In this document: piece after piece, positions 4,999-50,192 of the stretch
Layout: each line of letters opens with the position of its first letter
Position numbering within the stretch: position 1 is the first letter of the stretch
NCBI RefSeq assembly: GCF_900215575.1
Contig: NZ_OBEJ01000001.1
Coordinates: forward strand, 124,001-188,000
Length of the DNA stretch: 64,000 nt
Source: Natronoarchaeum philippinense
GTDB taxonomy: Archaea; Halobacteriota; Halobacteria; Halobacteriales; Natronoarchaeaceae
Reading direction: 5' to 3'
Position numbers and translations under genes: made by a program
The notes under the pieces: generated by a model
What the model was told of the DNA's origin: nothing
The model's database searches: none
The model's input: only the letters and a program-made list of their open reading frames with translations

Positions 4999-6699
4999 AT
5001 GTACGACGATGACGACCTCGCATCGATCAGAGAGGCCCGCGAGGAGTTCGAAGCGGAGACGCTCGGTCCCGTCCTCGATCGCTTCGGGGAGCGCAAGGAT
5101 CGGTTTGCGACGGTCTCGAACCTCGACGTGGATCGTCTCTACACGCCAGACGACGTGGCCGATCTCGACTACCTCGACGATCTGGGATTCCCGGGTGAGG
5201 AACCGTTCACGCGCGGCGTCTACCCGACGATGTACCGCGGTCGGACGTGGACGATGCGCCAGTTCGCCGGCTTCGGTACGGCGACCGAGACCAACGAGCG
5301 CTTCCACTACTTGATCGACGAGGGCCAGACCGGGCTCTCGACGGCCTTCGACATGCCGACGCTGATGGGCAAGGATTCGGACGATCCGCTGACCGACGGT
5401 GAGGTCGGCAAGGAAGGTGTCGCCGTCGACACGCTGCGGGACATGGAGGTCCTGTTCGAGGGAATCGACGTTGGCGAGGTCTCGACGAGTTTCACGATCA
5501 ACCCTTCCGCGCCGGTGATCTACGCGATGTACGTCGCCATCGCGGACCAACAGGGCGTTCCACGCGAGGAGCTCCGTGGAACTCTCCAGAACGACATGCT
5601 CAAGGAGTTTATCGCCCAGAAAGAGTGGGTAATCCCGCCCGAGCCGTCGCTGGATCTCGTCACCGACGTGATCGAGTTCGCCGCCGACGAGACGCCGAAG
5701 TTCAACCCCGTCTCGGTGTCGGGCTATCACATCCGCGAGGCCGGTTCGACTGCGGTGCAGGAACTGGCCTTCACGCTTGCCGACGGGTTCGCCTACGTCG
5801 AAGACGCGATCGAGCGCGGGCTGGCAGTCGACGAGTTCGCGCCCCAACTGTCCTTTTTCTTCAACTGCCACAACTCCTTTTTCGAGGAGATCGCAAAGTT
5901 CCGCGCCGCCCGGCGGATCTACGCCCGCCTGATGGACGAGTGGTACGACGCCGACGCGACGGCGTCGAAACAACTCAAGTTCCACACCCAGACCGCCGGT
6001 CAGAGCCTGACCGCCCAGCAACCTCTCAACAACGTCGTCCGCGTGACGATTCAGGCGCTCGCTGGCGTGCTCGGAGGAACCCAAAGCCTCCACACCAACA
6101 GCTTCGACGAGGCGCTCGCGCTGCCCGGCGAGAAGGCCGTTCGCGTCGCCTTGCGCACTCAACAGATCATCGGCGAGGAATCGGGTGCCGCGGACATCGT
6201 CGATCCGATGGGCGGGAGTTTCGCCGTCGAGGCGCTGACCGACGAGACCGAGCAGCGAACGATGGAGTACCTCGAAGAGATCCGCGAGATGGGCGACGGC
6301 TCGATGCGCGAGGGCGTCCTGACGGCGCTGGAACGGGGCTATTTCCACCGTGAGATTCAGGAGGCGTCCTACGAATACCAAGAGCGCGTCGAATCCGGCG
6401 AGGAGGTCGTCGTCGGCGTCAACGAGTTCACCATCGAGGAAGACACCAGACCGGACATTCTCAAAGTCGACGAAACCGTCGAACAGCGCCAGCGCGATCG
6501 CCTCGCGGCGGTCAAAGACGAGCGCGACGACGACGCCGTCGAGGCTGCACTGTCGAGCGTCGAGGACGCCATCGAAGCCGGCGAAAATACGATGCCGGCG
6601 ATCGTCGAGGCAGTGAAAGCGTACGCCACGATGGGTGAAATCATGCGGGTGTTCGAGGACGCTCACGGCGCCTACGAGGAGGAAATCGGATTGGCCTGA
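4999..6699 (+). CDS. mcmA1: methylmalonyl-CoA mutase, large (catalytic) subunit
   Basis: A 566-residue TIM-barrel subunit that, with the separate B12-binding subunit, interconverts methylmalonyl-CoA and succinyl-CoA. The CoA- and substrate-binding segments RGVYPTMYRGRTWTMRQFAG, GQTGLSTAFDMPT and SVSGYHIREAGSTAVQE are intact, as is LGGTQSLHTNSFDEALALP. It ends before any cobalamin-binding domain, as expected for the split archaeal enzyme; that domain is encoded at 16745-17161. Located directly upstream of acs, it fits acetate/propionate metabolism (propionyl-CoA route or the haloarchaeal methylaspartate cycle). Confidence 0.96.
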   Translation: MYDDDDLASIREAREEFEAETLGPVLDRFGERKDRFATVSNLDVDRLYTPDDVADLDYLDDLGFPGEEPFTRGVYPTMYRGRTWTMRQFAGFGTATETNERFHYLIDEGQTGLSTAFDMPTLMGKDSDDPLTDGEVGKEGVAVDTLRDMEVLFEGIDVGEVSTSFTINPSAPVIYAMYVAIADQQGVPREELRGTLQNDMLKEFIAQKEWVIPPEPSLDLVTDVIEFAADETPKFNPVSVSGYHIREAGSTAVQELAFTLADGFAYVEDAIERGLAVDEFAPQLSFFFNCHNSFFEEIAKFRAARRIYARLMDEWYDADATASKQLKFHTQTAGQSLTAQQPLNNVVRVTIQALAGVLGGTQSLHTNSFDEALALPGEKAVRVALRTQQIIGEESGAADIVDPMGGSFAVEALTDETEQRTMEYLEEIREMGDGSMREGVLTALERGYFHREIQEASYEYQERVESGEEVVVGVNEFTIEEDTRPDILKVDETVEQRQRDRLAAVKDERDDDAVEAALSSVEDAIEAGENTMPAIVEAVKAYATMGEIMRVFEDAHGAYEEEIGLA

Positions 6700-6813
6700 G
6701 ACGCGGCGCTCGTCCCGGTACCGTTGTACCGGCTGCCCCGCCGCCCTCCCCCGGAAATCCCCGACAGCTAGGCTAACGTTTATCCCCTCGTGTTGTGCAC
6801 GTGAACGTACGCC

Positions 6814-8793
6814 ATGACAGACGAACCCGATGTCGAGTTGGAGGCTCGCTTGGAGGAACAGGATTCGTTCGAGCCACCCGAGGAGTTTGTCGAGCAGGCC
6901 AACGTCACCGATCCGGGGATCTACGAGGAGTTCGAGGAGAACTGGCCCGACGCGTGGGAGCAGGCGGCCGACCTGCTCGACTGGGACGACGAGTGGGACG
7001 AGGTGCTGGTCGAAGAGGATGCGCCGTTTTACGAATGGTTCGTCGGCGGCGAACTGAACGCGGCGTACAACTGCGTCGACCGCCACGTCGAGAACGGCCG
7101 CAAGAATCAGGCCGCGATTCGGTGGGAAGGCGAACTAGGTGAGACCCGGACGTACACGTATCAGGACCTGTATCGGGAGGTCAACGAGTTCGCCGCCGCG
7201 CTGCGCGACCTCGGCGTCGAAGAGGACGACGTGGTCACGCTCTACATGCCGATGATTCCGGAGCTGCCGATCGCCATGCTCGCGTGTGCCCGCATCGGCG
7301 CGCCCCACTCGGTCGTGTTCGCGGGCTTTTCGGCCGACGCGCTGGCGACGCGGATGAACTCGGCCGACTCGGAGTATCTCGTCACCTGCGACGGCTACTA
7401 CCGGCGCGGCGACGCCCTCAACCACAAGGAGAAAGCCGACGAAGGGCTTCGCGGCGTCGAACACGAGGTCGAGGACATCGTCGTCGTCGACCGTCTCGGC
7501 GACAAGCTCACGCACTTCCTCGGCGCGAACTACCACGACTACGACGAGCTGGTCGACGACCACGACGGCGAGCGCGTCGAGCCAGTCTCCCGGGACGCCG
7601 AGGATATGCTGTTCTTGATGTACACCTCCGGCACCACAGGCCAACCGAAGGGCGTCAAGCACACCACGGGCGGCTATCTCTCCTACGCCGCGTGGACGAG
7701 CCACGCCGTCCTCGACATCGAACCGGAAGACACGTACTGGTGTTCGGCCGACATCGGGTGGATCACGGGCCACTCCTACATCGTCTACGGGCCGCTCGCG
7801 CTCGGCACCACGACGATGATGTACGAAGGGACGCCGGATTACCCCGAGAAGGACCGACTGTGGGAGATCGTCGAGAAGAACGCGGTCGACATCTTCTACA
7901 CCGCACCCACTGCGATCCGGTCGTTCATGAAGTGGGGCAAAGAGCACCTCGAAGGCCGTGACCTCTCCAGTCTCCGATTGCTCGGCACCGTTGGAGAGCC
8001 GATCAATCCGCGGGCGTGGAAGTGGTACTACAAACACGTCGGCGACGAGTCCTGCCCGGTCGTCGACACGTGGTGGCAGACCGAGACTGGCGGCATGATG
8101 GTCACCACATTACCGGGGGTCAACGAGATGAAACCCGGCTCCGCAGGACCGGGACTTCCGGGCGTCGACGCCAAAGTCATCCATCCGGACAAGGAAGAGG
8201 TCGAGCCCGGGCAGGCCGGCCATCTCACTGTCCAGAAGCCGTGGCCCGGCATGCTCCGGACCCTCTATCAGAACGACGAGCGCTTTGTCCAAGAGTACTG
8301 GGAGGAGTACTCCGATCCCGACAGCGACGAGTGGATCTACTTCCCCGAGGACGGCGCGAAGGTCGACGAGGACGACTACATCACGGTACTCGGACGCGTC
8401 GACGACGTGCTGAACGTCTCGGGCCACCGGCTGGGGACCATGGAGATCGAGTCCGCAATCGTCGGCGTGCCAGGCGTCGCCGAAGCCGCCGTCGTCGGCG
8501 GCGACCACGAAGTCAAGGGCGAGGCGGTCTACGTCTACGCCATCACAGAGGAGGGAACTGACGGCGACGAGGACCTCCGCGAGCGCGTCGTCGACAACGT
8601 CGAAGACGCCATCGGCCCGATCGCCCGCCCCGAGGAGATCGTCTTCACGCCGGAACTCCCCAAGACGCGCTCGGGCAAGATCATGCGTCGCCTGCTCGAA
8701 GACATCGCTAACGGCGACGAACTCGGCAACACGTCGACGCTTCGGAACCCCGACATCGTCGACGACATCCAACAGCGGGTCAGCGACGACTGA
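6814..8793 (+). CDS. acs: acetyl-CoA synthetase (AMP-forming)
   Basis: A 659-residue acyl-adenylate-forming enzyme: acetate + ATP + CoA to acetyl-CoA + AMP + PPi. The P-loop-like motif YTSGTTGQPKGVKHTTGGYL, WWQTETGG, the hinge LGRVDDVLNVSGHRLGTMEI and the C-terminal catalytic lysine in PKTRSGKIMRR (about residue 622) are all present. Full family length. A TATA-like ACGTTTATCC lies about 30-35 nt upstream of the ATG. Propionate could also be a substrate. Adjacency to mcmA1 suggests joint use in short-chain acid assimilation. Confidence 0.95.
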   Translation: MTDEPDVELEARLEEQDSFEPPEEFVEQANVTDPGIYEEFEENWPDAWEQAADLLDWDDEWDEVLVEEDAPFYEWFVGGELNAAYNCVDRHVENGRKNQAAIRWEGELGETRTYTYQDLYREVNEFAAALRDLGVEEDDVVTLYMPMIPELPIAMLACARIGAPHSVVFAGFSADALATRMNSADSEYLVTCDGYYRRGDALNHKEKADEGLRGVEHEVEDIVVVDRLGDKLTHFLGANYHDYDELVDDHDGERVEPVSRDAEDMLFLMYTSGTTGQPKGVKHTTGGYLSYAAWTSHAVLDIEPEDTYWCSADIGWITGHSYIVYGPLALGTTTMMYEGTPDYPEKDRLWEIVEKNAVDIFYTAPTAIRSFMKWGKEHLEGRDLSSLRLLGTVGEPINPRAWKWYYKHVGDESCPVVDTWWQTETGGMMVTTLPGVNEMKPGSAGPGLPGVDAKVIHPDKEEVEPGQAGHLTVQKPWPGMLRTLYQNDERFVQEYWEEYSDPDSDEWIYFPEDGAKVDEDDYITVLGRVDDVLNVSGHRLGTMEIESAIVGVPGVAEAAVVGGDHEVKGEAVYVYAITEEGTDGDEDLRERVVDNVEDAIGPIARPEEIVFTPELPKTRSGKIMRRLLEDIANGDELGNTSTLRNPDIVDDIQQRVSDD

Positions 8794-8799
8794 GGAGCC

Positions 8800-9078
8800 C
8801 TACCGCTCGGACAGATACAAGATTGCAACTAGCGGCACTCCGAGAACGGCCGCCACGGTGAGGCCGCCATACAGCGCGAACCCGAGCATGGTTGGCGGCA
8901 GGCTGATGAACCCAAACAGCGTCAGCGGCTCGGACACTTCGGTCAACACCACCGATAGGGCGGCACCCATCAGCGCCGCGACGCCGCTCAACGCTAGGTA
9001 CAGGCCGATCACGAACCGTCGGCCGTCCAGTTCCGAGCCCGCGTCGATCCCCTCGAAGGTCGGTTCGGCGTCTGTCAC
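8800..9078 (-). CDS. small membrane protein of the cox region, function unknown
   Basis: A protein of about 92 residues if it starts at the GTG at 9078 (MTDAEPTFEGIDAG...). An alternative GTG at 9117 would add 13 residues but would run through the A/T-rich stretch that looks like the promoter. Two hydrophobic helices (roughly residues 26-48 and 60-85) are visible and no catalytic motif. It converges on acs and is divergent from the 28-codon membrane ORF, close to coxA. Small two-helix proteins like this are common satellites of haloarchaeal cox genes; the role in oxidase assembly is only inferred. Confidence 0.6.
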   Translation of the reverse strand: MTDAEPTFEGIDAGSELDGRRFVIGLYLALSGVAALMGAALSVVLTEVSEPLTLFGFISLPPTMLGFALYGGLTVAAVLGVPLVAILYLSER

Positions 9079-9138
9079 GATCGAAACGACGGGCCTGAAA
9101 GGATTAGGCTTTTCCACTCGTCGCCCCTGAGTGCTAGT

Positions 9139-9225
9139 ATGAGCGAGAAGGAACTGCTCGGACTCGTGCTGGGCGCGATCGTGACCATGATGTTCCTCAC
9201 GGGCTTTATCATCGTCCTCAGCTGA
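9139..9225 (+). CDS. 28-residue single-pass membrane peptide
   Basis: An ATG at 9139 opens a 28-codon frame that is almost entirely one hydrophobic helix (LGLVLGAIVTMMFLTGFIIVLS) after a short charged start MSEKE, ending with TGA at 9225. It is too short for standard gene finders. It sits between the divergent small membrane gene and the 3' end of coxA. The charged start, a helix of about 22 residues and a clean stop look like a genuine small oxidase-associated or regulatory membrane peptide, but coding status rests on composition alone. Confidence 0.5.
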   Translation: MSEKELLGLVLGAIVTMMFLTGFIIVLS

Positions 9226-9323
9226 CGCAGTCCCGTAGTTCGACCCCGTTTCTTCGCCCTCTGTACGCTGGCGTCTGATCGTTCTTCCGGCGAGCGCTGC
9301 GAGCGCTAGAACTCATTGCAATC

Positions 9324-9355
9324 GACGAAAACGAACGAGAAACGCGCGAAAAGAG
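9324..9355 (-). terminator. T-rich termination region after coxA
   Basis: On the minus strand, immediately after the coxA stop, several short T-tracts (CTCTTTTCG, GTTTCTCG, CGTTTTCG) follow each other, the pattern of archaeal oligo-T termination without a required hairpin. Confidence 0.35.
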
Positions 9356-11191
9356 TTACTCGTCGGCAGTCGAGGCCTGATCGACGGCGTCGCGCTCACC
9401 GCCGTCGGTGGCAACTTCTGCGTCGTCTTCCGGCTCGCCGCCGTCGGCCATCGGCAGGAGCTTGTGCTCGCCGAACCAGTCCCACTCGCGGCCCTTCATA
9501 CCGTGCTCTTCGAGGTTCCACGGGTCGTCGTCGGTGACGCGCGGCCCTTCGAGCCACGAGACGATGAAGTTCCACAGGAAGATGAGCTGGCCGACGAACA
9601 GCAAGATCGCGCCGAACGTGGCGATCTGGTGGAGGTCGGTGAACATCCCCGTCGGCCCGACCGGGAACTCGTAGTTGGCGTACTTCCGGGGCATGCCGCC
9701 GTAGCCCAGCAGGATCATGGCGAAGAACACGACGTTCGTGCCGATCATCGACAGCCAGAAGTGCCACTTGGCGAGTCGCTGCTGGTACATCCGACCGGTG
9801 TAGATGGGGAACCAGTAGTACAGGCCCACGAACACCGAGAAGCCGATGGCTCCCATCACGATGTAGTGGAAGTGACCGACCACGTAGTAGGTCTCGTGGA
9901 GCGCCTGATTGACCGGCACCGCGGCGAGGAACACGCCGGTAACCCCGCCGAGGATGAAGTTCGAGATGAACCCGATCGAGAACAGCATCGGCGCTGTCAG
10001 GCGGATGTCACCGTTCCACAGCGTCGTGATCCAGTTGAACGTCTTGACCGCGCTCGGTATTGCGATCGAGAGCGTCACCGCCATGAACGCCGCTTCGAGC
10101 CGGGGGTCCATCCCGGAGGCGAACATGTGGTGCGCCCAGACGCCGAAGGACAGCACCCCGATTGCCAGCGTCGAGTAGACGACGAACTTGAACCCGAACA
10201 GCTTGCGCCCGGCAAACCGGGGTAACACGTAGCTAATGATCCCCATCGGCGGCAACACCAGAATGTACACTTCGGGGTGGCCGAAGAACCAGAACAGGTG
10301 CTGCCAGAGGATCGGGCCACCGCCCTCCGGCGCGAAGAACAGCGTCCCGAAGTTACGGTCGGCCAGCAGCATCAGCAGCGCGCTGCCCAGCAGCGGGAAC
10401 GCGAACAGGATCAGGCCCGACTGGGTGAGGATCGTCCACGAGAGGATGTCGAGGTTGTGCCAGCCCACGTCCTCGCCGCGCTCGGTGAAGATGGTCGCGA
10501 TGAAGTTGATCGCACCCATCGTCGCCGAAACCCCCGAGAGATGCAGGCCGAGCATCATCAGGTCCGCGCCGAGATTGATGACGCCGTTCGGACCTGCGGG
10601 CGTCCCCATCGCCGTACTGGAGGACGACAGCGGCGGGTACATCGTCCACGAGGTCTGGGCGCCGGCGACGTTTTCCATGAACGGCGCGAGCAAGAATCCG
10701 CCCCAGACGAGCAGCGCCGCGATCGGAAGCAGCCAGAACGCGATGGCGTTGATCCGCGGGAACGCCATGTCGTCGGCGTCGATCAGCAGCGGGATGAAGT
10801 AGTTACCGAACGCGGCGATCACGGGCGTCCCGAACAGGAACAGCATCGTGATGCCGTGGCTCGTCAGCAACGCATTGTACAGCGAGGCGCCGATCAGCGT
10901 CTCGCCGGGCAGCGACAGTTCCAGCCGCATCAGCATCACCGCGAGGCCGCCCCACGCGAACGCGATGACTGCGTACGTTCCGTACAGGATGCCGATGTCT
11001 TTGTGATCGACAGTCGTCAGCCAGCGCAAGATCCCGCTCGGTTTCTCCTGATGGCCGTGGGCCGTCTCGCCGCCCGTGGCGCCGCCCGCTGGAGTGTACG
11101 ACCTCCAACTCTCGACGCGCGTCAGCGCGGCGGCGACGGCCAGCAGGAAGACCCCCATCAGGACCGTCAGGATCAGTTGTCCGTTTACCAT
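9356..11191 (-). CDS. coxA: haem-copper terminal oxidase subunit I
   Basis: A 611-residue membrane protein with a long N-terminal helix and soluble stretch before the canonical 12-helix core starting at TTVDHKDIGILYGTYA. Haem and CuB ligands are visible: LLTSHGITMLFLF, FFGHPEVYILVLPP (with the cross-linked His-x3-Tyr), WAHHMFASGMDP and VVGHFHYIVMGAIGF. This marks an A-type aa3/ba3-like proton-pumping oxidase reducing O2 to water. The acidic C-terminal tail (DGGEPEDDAEVATDGGE) is typically haloarchaeal. Subunits II and III are encoded 16 kb away at 27.4-29.2 kb. A TATA-like CTTTCTTTAGC lies about 27 nt upstream. Confidence 0.97.
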   Translation of the reverse strand: MVNGQLILTVLMGVFLLAVAAALTRVESWRSYTPAGGATGGETAHGHQEKPSGILRWLTTVDHKDIGILYGTYAVIAFAWGGLAVMLMRLELSLPGETLIGASLYNALLTSHGITMLFLFGTPVIAAFGNYFIPLLIDADDMAFPRINAIAFWLLPIAALLVWGGFLLAPFMENVAGAQTSWTMYPPLSSSSTAMGTPAGPNGVINLGADLMMLGLHLSGVSATMGAINFIATIFTERGEDVGWHNLDILSWTILTQSGLILFAFPLLGSALLMLLADRNFGTLFFAPEGGGPILWQHLFWFFGHPEVYILVLPPMGIISYVLPRFAGRKLFGFKFVVYSTLAIGVLSFGVWAHHMFASGMDPRLEAAFMAVTLSIAIPSAVKTFNWITTLWNGDIRLTAPMLFSIGFISNFILGGVTGVFLAAVPVNQALHETYYVVGHFHYIVMGAIGFSVFVGLYYWFPIYTGRMYQQRLAKWHFWLSMIGTNVVFFAMILLGYGGMPRKYANYEFPVGPTGMFTDLHQIATFGAILLFVGQLIFLWNFIVSWLEGPRVTDDDPWNLEEHGMKGREWDWFGEHKLLPMADGGEPEDDAEVATDGGERDAVDQASTADE

Positions 11192-46391: not shown

Positions 46392-49300
46392 TCAGTCGAT
46401 CGAGACGAACGGAAGCGTCGCCAGTTCGTCGGCCGAGTACGCGAGCGCGTCGGCCTGACTGACGCCCTCGGGCGTGATCATGTCCATGATCCGTGGCGTG
46501 TTGGCGGCCGCGCCGGGCGTGGCGCCGCCGAAGACGTAGTCGGCGGCCGTCTCGGCGACGGGCCTGAGCGTCCCTAGGTCCTCGGATTGGACCATCGGGA
46601 CGATCTCCAGATCGCGCGCGTCGACGCCGTCGAACGCCGCGCGGTCGATGCTCAACTCGACCGTATTGGCGTCCGGGTCGACGCGTTCACCGACTCTGAC
46701 CGCGTTGCCGTCGTCGTCGGTCACGGTCGCGCCCGAGGCCGTAACGGCGCTTTTGGTGAAGCCGCTGATCTCGACGCGGTAGTGCCACGGCGCCTCGAAC
46801 GTCGCGTTGGCGCCGAGATCGGGCAGCGTCTGGGTCGTGCCGCCGCTCTTGTCGGGGTCGCGCACCCACATGACGAACATGTGCGGCGAGAAGCCGAAGT
46901 CGCCGCCGAACCCGTCGTTGAGGTTCTCGACCTCGAAGGTGAACTGGTAGATGCTCGGCGTCTGCTCGACGGTCACCGAGCGCAGGTCGAACGTTCCCTC
47001 CTCGAAGGCGCCGGCGGTCGGATAGGTGTAGCCGCCGGGACCGTAGTCGTCGCCCGCCGGATCGTCGAAGGTGGCGATCGTCTCTGGGGGCTTGACAGTC
47101 ACCGTCTGACTGGCGAGCGTCTCGCCGTCGGTGCTGCGGACGGTCACCTCGTAGGAACCGGGGTCGTCGATGGTGACGGTGAACTCGTCGACTCCGTCCG
47201 ACGAGTCCGGCGCGAACCGGACGTTCTCCGAGCGGACGAACTCGCCGTCGACGAACACGTCGACGGTCGTCCCGCTCAGGTACTCACCGAAGTTCGTTCC
47301 GGTGGCCTGCACGAACGGCTCTTGGATGAACGTCTCGGCGTCGATCGACACGTCGAACTCCTGTTCGGGACGCTCGTAGTGCGGGAGCTCCCTGACTTCT
47401 TCCCACGTCGCCGGCCGGATGCGGAGCGCGGTGCCGCCCGAGCCGACCATCGAGGCCAGCACCTCGGTGTCGGCGTCGACGATCGCTTCGTCGATCCGAA
47501 CGTCCGTGAGGTTGCTGTCGTAGCGGGCTTCGATGCCGTCGGAGTAGATCTCGGCGACGTACTTGCCCTTGGTGTGGCCGCGACCTCGCTCGTGGTCGCA
47601 GTCCTCTCGGTGGTTGTCTTCGTCGCCGTTCCAACCGCCACGGCCGCTATTGCTTCGGCCCTTCGCGTTGCCGTTTCCGGGCGTTCCGCCGTGCCCTCTC
47701 CCGCGCCCCTTCTCGTGACCTTTGCGCTCACCGGGCGCGTCGTCGAGGAACGACAGCGGAACGTCGATCGCACGTCCGTTCTCGTCGGACATCGCGCCGA
47801 CGAACCACTCGTCGCCGCTCTTGCGGGCGGTGATCGTGTAGTCGCCGATCTCGGCGTCGACGACGCGCGTGTCGTCCCAGGCCGCCGGAACGTCCTCGAT
47901 GAACTGGAAGGCGGGGACAGTCTCGCCGCGGATCGGCGCCGTCTCGGGTTCGGGCATCGATTCGCCGGACTCGGTGACGGCGATCGAATCGAGGTTGAAC
48001 CCGCCGGTGTCGGCGTCGGTCAGCGCGACCGCGATGTCGCTGTCGCCGCTTTCCAGCGACACCGTCGTCGAGACCGACCCCCACGTGTCCCAGTACTCCG
48101 TCGGCGGCAGCGTCACCTGTGCGCGCTCGGTGCCGTCGACCAGCACCGTCGCGGTTCGGGGCGTTCCTTGCGGGACGGCATTCTCTTCGGCGTCGCTCGC
48201 GTATCGGAGATGTACGTCGTACTCGCCGGCCGACTCGACGCCTTCGACGGTCCACGACGCCGTCGCGCCCGCGGCGACGGTGTTGGGATCGACGGGGACG
48301 TACTGCTCGCCCTGCGCGTTGGCCCAGCGGGCGGCCGTCGAAAAGCCGTCGAGGTCGGCCCACTCGGCCTGCGCGACCTCGCCGACGCCCAGCGTCGCCG
48401 GCTGGTCGGCCAGATACGAACTCGGCAGGTCGGCGGCCATCTGGAGGCCGCTGAAGTACGTCGGGTACATGGCGAGTTGCTTGGCCCGCGTCGTCTCGAT
48501 GCCGCCCGAGCCCGAGTCCATGTCGAAGATGCCCGGCGTGTACTCGACGGGGCCGCCGAGCATTCGGGTGAACGGGAACGTCACGTGATGCTCGGGGCTG
48601 ACGAATCCGAAGGAGTCGTACTCTTGGCCTTTGACGCCCTCGCGGGTCATCAGGTTGGGGTAGGTTCGGCGTCGCCCCGTCGGATGGATCGGCTCGTGGA
48701 TGTCGAGCATCTGGCGGTTCGCCGCGGCGGTCTCGGCGATGAGCGTGTGGTGGTTGACGAGCACCTGATTGTGGTGGTTGAACCCCTCGCCGGCGAGGTT
48801 CCCGCTGTCGGCGACGTACCCGTTCTTGATCGTCCGGATGCCCAGATCGTCGTACAGGTCGAACGCCTCGTCGGCCTGTGACTCGTAGTTCTCGAAGTCG
48901 CCCGCGGTCTCGTTGTGCATCGTCATCTGGGTCGGCGGGTCGAGGTTCGGGCCGTAGTCGGTCACCTCCTGTAAGTCGAAGTCGGGGTACGGCTCGGTGT
49001 AGTCGAACGCGCTCCCGTCGCCGGGATAGCTCGACCAGCCCTCGTTCCAGCCCTCGATCAGTACGCCCGGGATGGAGTGCTCGCTGGCGAAGTCCATATA
49101 CTGCTTGGCGCGCCCGGTCTGGGCGCCGTGGTTGCCCGAGTTCATCCCGGTGAACGTCCAGTCGGCACGTCCGGTGATCATCAGCCACCAGATGCCGATG
49201 AACTTCTGGGGCTCGATCCAGTCGACGCCCTGCGTGAACACCGACTCGTCGTAGTCCTCGTTGAGGTTGAGCACGAGACTCGACTCCATCAACTCGCCCG

Positions 49301-50192
49301 GCCGAGTTCCGATCTGGAACGTCCGCCACGGCGTCATGTGTGGCGCCGTTGCCGAGACTTTCGTCCCGTCGGGCAGCGGCGCCAGCGTCGACTCCATGGC
49401 GGGGCCGTCACCGCCTGCAGGCGCGATCGCCAGCGAGGCGTAGTCGTCGAGATTCGCCTCGTGGACGCTCAGATACAGGTCCTCGTCGGTCCGCATCGTC
49501 ATCGGCGTGTGGACGCCGTTGCCGCCCGCCGAGACGGGGGCGCCGTCGAGGCCGGATTCGATCCCCGACAGCGGCGTCTCGCGGTACTCGACCTCGAAGT
49601 TGTTCCAGTCGTTGGGAATCCACCACGAGGTGTAATCGCCCGCGAAGTTGTACTCGGTGCGCTCGGACGTGACGACGAAGTCGCCGAACGATTCGCCGAA
49701 GACGAATCGGAGCCCGAAGCCGTCGTCGAACGCCCGGAGTTCGAGGGTGCCCGAGCGCCCCCCGTCGCCGCTCTCGGCGAGGCCGACCCGGAGCTCGTTG
49801 TAGCGCTCTCGGATCTCCTCGTACTGATCCCAGACGGGCTCCCACGTCGAATCGACCGAATCGCGCTCGGTCCCGGTGACGGAGAGCCCCTCGCGGAACG
49901 TCGGCTGGTTCTGGAACTCGAAGCCGAGCGCCGACTCCTCGACGACTGTACTGTCGTCGTAGGCGACTTCGTAGGTCGGGACGCCGTCGGCGGCGTCGAC
50001 CGTCACTTCGAGCCGGCCGTCTGGCGATGCTACCGTCTGTACCGGTTCGTCGTCACCGTCGACGACGCTTGCTGCGACGCTTTCCGGCACCGACAGCGAG
50101 TACGCCGACGCCGCCAGCAACGACGCCACTCCCCCCACGAACTGCCGTCGGCCGATGGCTCCTGTTTGTTGCGCGTTAGTTTCCTCGAACAT
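46392..50192 (-). CDS. Tat-exported glycoside hydrolase GH97 with CBM35-like, basic-loop and C-terminal DOMON-like modules
   Basis: A 1266-residue secreted glycosidase. A Tat signal (IGRRQFVGGVASLLAAS) is followed by the GH97 N-terminal beta-sandwich, then a catalytic barrel with GVLIEGWNEGW and the conserved MTREGVKGQEYD. A CBM35-like module (about residues 630-745) is inserted before the GH97 C-terminal domain resumes (FIEDVPAAWDDTRVVD). Within that domain lies a basic Gly/His/Arg-rich loop (about 817-877, e.g. GRGRGHGGTPGNGNAKGRS). Beyond it are a wall-like domain and a glucodextranase-type DOMON-like end (about 1085-1250). GH97 enzymes are alpha-glucosidases or alpha-galactosidases. A strong TATA box precedes the ATG. 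Confidence 0.93.
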   Translation of the reverse strand: MFEETNAQQTGAIGRRQFVGGVASLLAASAYSLSVPESVAASVVDGDDEPVQTVASPDGRLEVTVDAADGVPTYEVAYDDSTVVEESALGFEFQNQPTFREGLSVTGTERDSVDSTWEPVWDQYEEIRERYNELRVGLAESGDGGRSGTLELRAFDDGFGLRFVFGESFGDFVVTSERTEYNFAGDYTSWWIPNDWNNFEVEYRETPLSGIESGLDGAPVSAGGNGVHTPMTMRTDEDLYLSVHEANLDDYASLAIAPAGGDGPAMESTLAPLPDGTKVSATAPHMTPWRTFQIGTRPGELMESSLVLNLNEDYDESVFTQGVDWIEPQKFIGIWWLMITGRADWTFTGMNSGNHGAQTGRAKQYMDFASEHSIPGVLIEGWNEGWSSYPGDGSAFDYTEPYPDFDLQEVTDYGPNLDPPTQMTMHNETAGDFENYESQADEAFDLYDDLGIRTIKNGYVADSGNLAGEGFNHHNQVLVNHHTLIAETAAANRQMLDIHEPIHPTGRRRTYPNLMTREGVKGQEYDSFGFVSPEHHVTFPFTRMLGGPVEYTPGIFDMDSGSGGIETTRAKQLAMYPTYFSGLQMAADLPSSYLADQPATLGVGEVAQAEWADLDGFSTAARWANAQGEQYVPVDPNTVAAGATASWTVEGVESAGEYDVHLRYASDAEENAVPQGTPRTATVLVDGTERAQVTLPPTEYWDTWGSVSTTVSLESGDSDIAVALTDADTGGFNLDSIAVTESGESMPEPETAPIRGETVPAFQFIEDVPAAWDDTRVVDAEIGDYTITARKSGDEWFVGAMSDENGRAIDVPLSFLDDAPGERKGHEKGRGRGHGGTPGNGNAKGRSNSGRGGWNGDEDNHREDCDHERGRGHTKGKYVAEIYSDGIEARYDSNLTDVRIDEAIVDADTEVLASMVGSGGTALRIRPATWEEVRELPHYERPEQEFDVSIDAETFIQEPFVQATGTNFGEYLSGTTVDVFVDGEFVRSENVRFAPDSSDGVDEFTVTIDDPGSYEVTVRSTDGETLASQTVTVKPPETIATFDDPAGDDYGPGGYTYPTAGAFEEGTFDLRSVTVEQTPSIYQFTFEVENLNDGFGGDFGFSPHMFVMWVRDPDKSGGTTQTLPDLGANATFEAPWHYRVEISGFTKSAVTASGATVTDDDGNAVRVGERVDPDANTVELSIDRAAFDGVDARDLEIVPMVQSEDLGTLRPVAETAADYVFGGATPGAAANTPRIMDMITPEGVSQADALAYSADELATLPFVSID

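Follow-up and report, generated by a model that had tools for sequence, protein, structure and literature searches.

Gene and domain organization

The window analysed here, a 64,000-nucleotide stretch of the haloarchaeon Natronoarchaeum philippinense (contig NZ_OBEJ01000001.1, positions 124,001 to 188,000), contains a gene for an exported glycosidase of glycoside hydrolase family 97 (GH97), which forms a single uninterrupted open reading frame of 1266 amino acids on the minus strand (46392..50192; all features of the gene given below lie on this strand). All three GH97 Pfam domains scored above their cut-offs (barrel 282, N-terminal 216 and C-terminal 81 bits, against 32.5, 25.3 and 25, respectively), and the best PDB matches of a structural model of residues 50-1040 in a fold search were all GH97 enzymes, which confirms the family assignment made in a first-pass annotation of the sequence. 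Haloarchaeal homologues share 49-71% full-length identity with this protein, the net charge of which is -147. A Tat-type (twin-arginine translocation) signal region lacking a lipobox Cys could be read from the sequence at residues about 1-41 (GRRQFVGG ... AASAYS; 50070..50192), and haloarchaeal GH97s have been given as Tat-exported in a recent survey (PMC13260240).

The signal region is followed by the GH97 N-terminal beta-sandwich (residues 54-312, 49257..50033; PF14508, E=8.8e-64) and the catalytic (beta/alpha)8 barrel (residues 323-599, 48396..49226; PF10566, E=4.6e-84), followed by a module of the carbohydrate-binding module (CBM) family 35 type (residues about 605-745, 47958..48380), for which Pfam CBM_6 clears its cut-off. 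The GH97 C-domain comes in two parts, residues 760-817 (47742..47915; PF14509 and alignment with 5hqc) and residues 877-926 (47415..47564; aligned to 5hqc 610-659), separated by a low-complexity, Gly-rich loop at residues 818-876 (47565..47741). The C-domain had been described as interrupted twice; the loop does split it, but the CBM sits between two domains, the barrel and the C-domain. The presence of a CBM35-like module at that place holds, the module being of CBM6/35 type by both Pfam and solved-structure matches. The C-terminus carries an immunoglobulin (Ig)-like beta domain (residues about 944-1038, 47079..47363; from a model of residues 925-1266, and aligning to 1ug9) and a Glucodextran_C module of the glucodextranase domain D type (residues 1039-1260, 46413..47078; PF09985, E=1.3e-53; 1ug9 profile E=5.9e-18). 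The former had been overlooked, and the latter called DOMON-like: a binding-type module is indeed present, and Glucodextran_C is its precise name. Together, the two domains match domains C and D of glucodextranase.

Predicted catalytic mechanism

Five glutamates known from SusB are present in the query and invariant across all aligned bacterial and haloarchaeal rows. They correspond to two calcium ligands, Glu200 (49593..49595; SusB Glu194) and Glu518 (48639..48641; SusB Glu526), the catalytic base Glu428 in an HNET motif (48909..48911; SusB Glu439), the base and/or calcium ligand Glu500 in an HE motif (48693..48695; SusB Glu508), and Glu524, catalytic acid as well as calcium ligand (48621..48623; SusB Glu532). 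In SusB, these residues hold calcium and serve as base and acid in an inverting mechanism (PMC2670981), from which the roles were transferred through the alignments. By analogy, Glu428 and Glu500 would activate water and Glu524 would give the proton, with calcium held by Glu200, Glu500, Glu518 and Glu524. The enzyme is thus quite probably an exported, calcium-dependent, inverting exo-alpha-glucosidase of subfamily GH97a (glucoamylase type), which would act outside the cell and take glucose off the non-reducing ends of alpha-glucans.

Two motifs weigh against this assignment. Inverting enzymes have been reported to carry HHET, described as absolute, and K(T/S)GY (PMC2670981), whereas the query has HNET and KNGY; its HE motif is present. 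All haloarchaeal rows shown have HNET, as does Paraliobacillus; the sequence from Qipengyuania algicida has HDET. For a related Qipengyuania enzyme, QsGH97a, inversion has been demonstrated and HHET reported (PMC10086023). The retaining alpha-galactosidase type of GH97 was also considered and rejected, as the query carries KNGY and HE rather than an Asp nucleophile in (K/M)(I/V)DF together with HG, and it reached only 226 bits against a cut-off of 800 with the NCBIfam model for that type.

The characterized GH97a enzymes SusB (BtGH97a), PspAG97A (5hq4), QsGH97a and FjGH97A (8wg0) share the N-domain, barrel, C-domain and the five active-site glutamates with the query. In contrast to them, the query has the HNET and KNGY motifs and additionally carries the CBM35, the disordered loop, the Ig-like domain and Glucodextran_C on an acidic haloarchaeal protein with a Tat-type signal. 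In the available passages of an early family analysis (Naumoff 2005, PMC1249566), the Haloarcula marismortui protein 97A1_HALMA appears as an outlier of subfamily 97a and an alpha-glucosidase homologue; these passages do not mention a CBM or an insertion. The query belongs to a GH97a clade that is widespread among haloarchaea and is an unremarkable representative of it, and a GH97 from Haloarcula was described in print as early as 2005.

The Gly-rich loop in the C-domain

The loop interrupts a hairpin of the C-domain that is closed by a short turn in bacterial GH97s. In the alignment with 5hqc, a Pseudoalteromonas GH97, 'LSFLDDA' joins 'YVAEIYSDG' directly, leaving residues 818-876 as an insertion. 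The proposed Gly-rich insertion of about 60 residues is therefore real, and its Gly content (29%, against never more than 17% in 59-residue windows well outside it) is a clearer peculiarity than its charge. The description of the loop as strongly basic, on the other hand, was overstated: it contains 12 basic residues (four Lys, eight Arg) and 10 acidic ones (five Asp, five Glu), which gives a net charge of +2 over 59 residues, with five His in addition. This charge is unevenly spread (+5 over the first 39 residues and -3 over the last 20) and stands out solely because the whole protein is so acidic; moreover, neutral or positive windows of the same length also occur in the catalytic barrel. 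Third-position guanine-cytosine (GC) content is relaxed in the loop (0.76 versus 0.90). No tandem DNA repeats were detected in it by Tandem Repeats Finder, although repeated units are present in the loops of relatives. It also holds the only Cys of the protein, residue 865 (47598-47600); the loops of two homologues (L007 and L062) have one Cys each as well.

An AlphaFold2 model of residues 50-1040, computed with 34 sequences, had a mean predicted local distance difference test (pLDDT) score of 82 and a predicted template modelling score of 0.83. Residues 818-872 had pLDDT values of 31-34 and no secondary structure; they are preceded by a short helix (814-817) and followed by a strand (878-885). 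Because of the low confidence, the lack of structure and the place at the tip of a hairpin, the loop is taken to be exposed, and the modelling suggested earlier as a check thus supports a disordered, probably solvent-exposed segment.

An origin of the loop by frameshift or misassembly was considered and ruled out, and its probability is practically negligible. Such an event might have been suspected from the orthologue of Haladaptatus halobius (L012), in which the frame changes precisely at the loop and a TAG codon lies in the catalytic region. The query frame is open throughout, the frame stays open through the loops of all 42 loop-bearing relatives in the tree described below, more than 40 orthologues remain in frame across their own loops, including one from the same genus with a different version of the loop, and the codon-position GC patterns of relatives' loops remain protein-like. 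In the H. halobius orthologue (about 5884-9607), TAG replaces the relatives' Gln in 'GVxGQEYD', which could mean either that the gene has decayed or that the sequence contains an error.

Variation of the loop among relatives

When 63 catalytic domains were placed in a tree, the haloarchaeal GH97s with a CBM formed one group (50 rows, support 100/100), and 42 of these rows carry a loop of at least about 15 residues at the same site. A CBM-bearing subgroup of eight rows has a turn of two to four residues instead (support 88/78, moderate), and CBM-less haloarchaeal paralogues as well as bacterial GH97s also lack the loop, its place being taken by a short turn. This distribution places the origin of the loop within the CBM-bearing clade, with either a single later loss or two separate gains predicted from the tree.

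The 42 distinct related loops were 15 to 99 residues long and carried net charges between -18 and +10 (median +2; 28 loops positive, three zero and 11 negative), with no conserved residue pattern. Haloarcula loops are rich in Gly and Asn and have no His, several Natrinema-type loops are rich in Lys and His, and the most negative one, from Natrinema salsiterrestre, is rich in Trp and Asp. An unusual layout was noticed in four Natrinema-type loops (L003, L050, L062 and L063), in which Trp/Asp-rich repeats (GWWDDDD) precede a basic Gly/His/Arg tract. Differences are large even between close relatives. A genome of the same genus (G244; locus L078) is 81% identical to the query over residues 50-817 and yet has an unrelated loop of 75 residues. 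L003 and L050 are 98% identical over the same residues, with loops of 86 and 99 residues that differ by a 13-residue insertion or deletion, and L008 and L017, with 95% identical bodies, have loops of 27 and 37 residues. Repeated units such as KSNGKGH (GKGH/KSN) in L061 and GWWDDDD in L003 point to slippage as the probable mechanism. The first-pass annotation had named a loop absent or random in all close homologues as a finding that would refute its reading; this agrees with the data for the sequence of the loop but not for its presence, as the site is usually occupied.

The first-pass annotation had proposed that the loop could bind acidic polysaccharide, the cell surface or metal. Read as a basic or His-rich element for acidic polysaccharide, an acidic surface layer (S-layer) or metal ions, this idea can draw on the median loop charge of +6 per 100 residues, compared with -12 for residues 50-817, and on the Lys/His-rich Natrinema-type loops with charges up to +10. 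Conservation of positive charge or of a His pattern could not be found: the query loop is close to neutral, about a quarter of the loops (11/42) are net negative, His is missing from about half, a shared motif is lacking, and the eight-row subgroup is loopless, which makes such a binding element very improbable. Variable length and charge, sparse His, the 13-residue difference and the low pLDDT argue against a conserved site for acidic glycans or metal, and fit a disordered spacer driven by slippage. Thus, the loop fits an ordinary fast-changing disordered spacer, not a special binding device. In the mechanism that we favour, a solvent-exposed 59-residue spacer at the tip of the C-domain hairpin would lengthen and shorten via in-frame repeat slippage, while selection would preserve its hydrophilic character and exclude most bulky apolar residues. 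Since length, charge and motif would not be held by selection, the loop is probably dispensable for catalysis and specific binding. Such a result also calls for caution in general, as a low-complexity segment that looked remarkable in a single exported protein turned out to be a hypervariable spacer after some forty relatives had been lined up.

Some observations fit less easily with a mere spacer. Most members of a large clade have kept a low-complexity insert at the site, and a composition of Gly, Asn, Lys, Arg and His recurs across lineages on a strongly acidic body. Such persistence makes some selection on loop composition likely, and a weak, non-specific role may exist. Similar tracts were also sought in other proteins. 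They did not prove to be a general feature of haloarchaeal proteins, since among 187 genes from the window and 16 loci they appeared only in GH97s, but a class-wide search with a DNA pattern for GKGH(D/E)KG matched seven of 394 genomes, the hits (identified by eye) being two GH97 loops, four exported proteins and one nuclease-like protein. The four exported proteins (L089, L090, L091 and L092) are of Tat type, have no assigned role and carry GKGHEKG repeats embedded in long acidic end tracts. The nuclease-like protein (L086, 1-1548) ends in about 45 strongly basic residues rich in Gly, Arg, Lys and His. Disordered segments of this sort thus recur in proteins other than GH97. In the literature, no description of such loops in haloarchaea was found.

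These tracts in unrelated Tat-exported proteins would also suit a loop selected for composition. In that case it would be an entropic spacer or a bristle against aggregation, hydrophilic and neutral to mildly cationic, which separates the CBM and the C-terminal modules or reduces the association of this acidic enzyme with itself in brine. The strong exclusion of apolar residues (Val, Ile, Leu, Met, Phe and Tyr together <1% across the 42 loops, versus about 27% in the rest) and the recurrence of the same residues in lineages with unrelated loop sequences are in line with this. Nevertheless, we regard it as rather unlikely, because length varies sixfold, charge changes sign, a version of 15-20 residues seems enough in many genera, and a sister subgroup with the same CBM does without the loop. 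The slippage-driven spacer therefore remains the preferred explanation.

Accessory modules and substrate

The inserted module scored 35.5 bits with Pfam CBM_6 (cut-off 28.9) and 25.9 bits with CBM_35 (cut-off 28), and is accordingly a predicted sugar-binding module of the CBM35/CBM6 type by sequence match. Its best solved profile matches (E down to 2.8e-21) were CBM35s of alpha-1,6-glucan enzymes, namely the GH31 alpha-1,6-glucosyltransferase 5x7o, a cycloalternan-forming enzyme, the isomaltodextranase 5awo and the CITase 3wnl, with which it shares a Trp and a DxGG(F/V)NLD segment. It differs from them in that Pfam ranks it as CBM_6 over CBM_35. The CBM35 of CITase, located in a barrel loop rather than between barrel and C-domain as in the query, belongs to a subfamily that recognizes glucosyl oligosaccharides (PMC5408701).

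At the C-terminus, Glucodextran_C scored 182 bits against a cut-off of 22, and residues 925-1266, modelled separately (pLDDT 85), matched glucodextranase 1ug9 in both fold (E=5.8e-18) and profile searches. In the Arthrobacter globiformis glucodextranase (1ug9/1ulv), chain residues 703-1018 (domains C and D) align with query residues about 963-1266, although the catalytic domain is GH15 there and GH97 here. The CBM35-type module beside the barrel and the glucodextranase-type Ig and D modules may hold the enzyme on the polymer. Two other haloarchaeal GH97s (L074 and L077) apparently have two Glucodextran_C copies (C-terminal part of 472-543 residues; second match partial).

The enzyme very probably releases glucose from sugars that resemble starch or dextran. 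PspAG97A, FjGH97A and SusB are among its nearest solved relatives; the first two are reported to have strong alpha-1,6 activity, and SusB high activity on alpha-1,4-linked oligosaccharides (PMC10316084). Because the nearest solved relatives of the CBM belong to alpha-1,6-glucan enzymes, the CBM35-bearing clade, which occurs across much of Halobacteria, might act outside the cell as an exo-glucosidase with a preference for alpha-1,6 linkages and so be the glucodextranase of haloarchaea, an idea that we consider conceivable but doubtful. Growth of Halobacteria on dextran was called previously unknown in 2022, when an isolate without a typical dextranase was described (PMC9726719). If the idea is true, dextran use in some haloarchaeal lineages would rest on GH97, without a dextranase having been assigned there so far. 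A dextran-only substrate is disfavoured by negative dextran enrichments from neutral salt lakes (PMC9726719) and by the joining of Glucodextran_C to GH13 alpha-amylase domains in the same genome, and an exported haloarchaeal GH97 has been listed, by annotation, as an amylose exo-alpha-1,4-glucosidase (PMC13260240). The clade appears to be a modular alpha-glucan enzyme, and its CBM35, glucodextranase-type modules and the alpha-1,6 activity reported for its nearest solved GH97 relative make the substrate question worthwhile.

Distribution and genomic context

GH97 is common in Halobacteria: a class-wide search found it in 115 of 394 genomes (about 29%), which represent 33 of 86 genera. Among GTDB genome contigs, orthologues with the complete set of domains were recovered from Haloarcula, Natrinema, Halocatena, Haladaptatus, Halomarina and Natronococcus. 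No carbohydrate- or polysaccharide-utilization cluster was detected among the ten neighbouring open reading frames searched in Pfam, which matched a PAS/GAF/HTH regulator, DUF proteins, a methyltransferase, the inositol monophosphatase family, a heavy-metal ATPase and an AI-2E family transporter. The query is the only GH97 of its genome, in which nine GH13 matches were also found, and Glucodextran_C lies in frame with a GH13 alpha-amylase domain in at least two proteins. Elsewhere in this genome (C3:99281-101459; L104 and L098), GH13 and Glucodextran_C were found 0.6 kb apart on the same strand, in open reading frames of 712 and 377 amino acids, which may be neighbouring genes or one broken gene.

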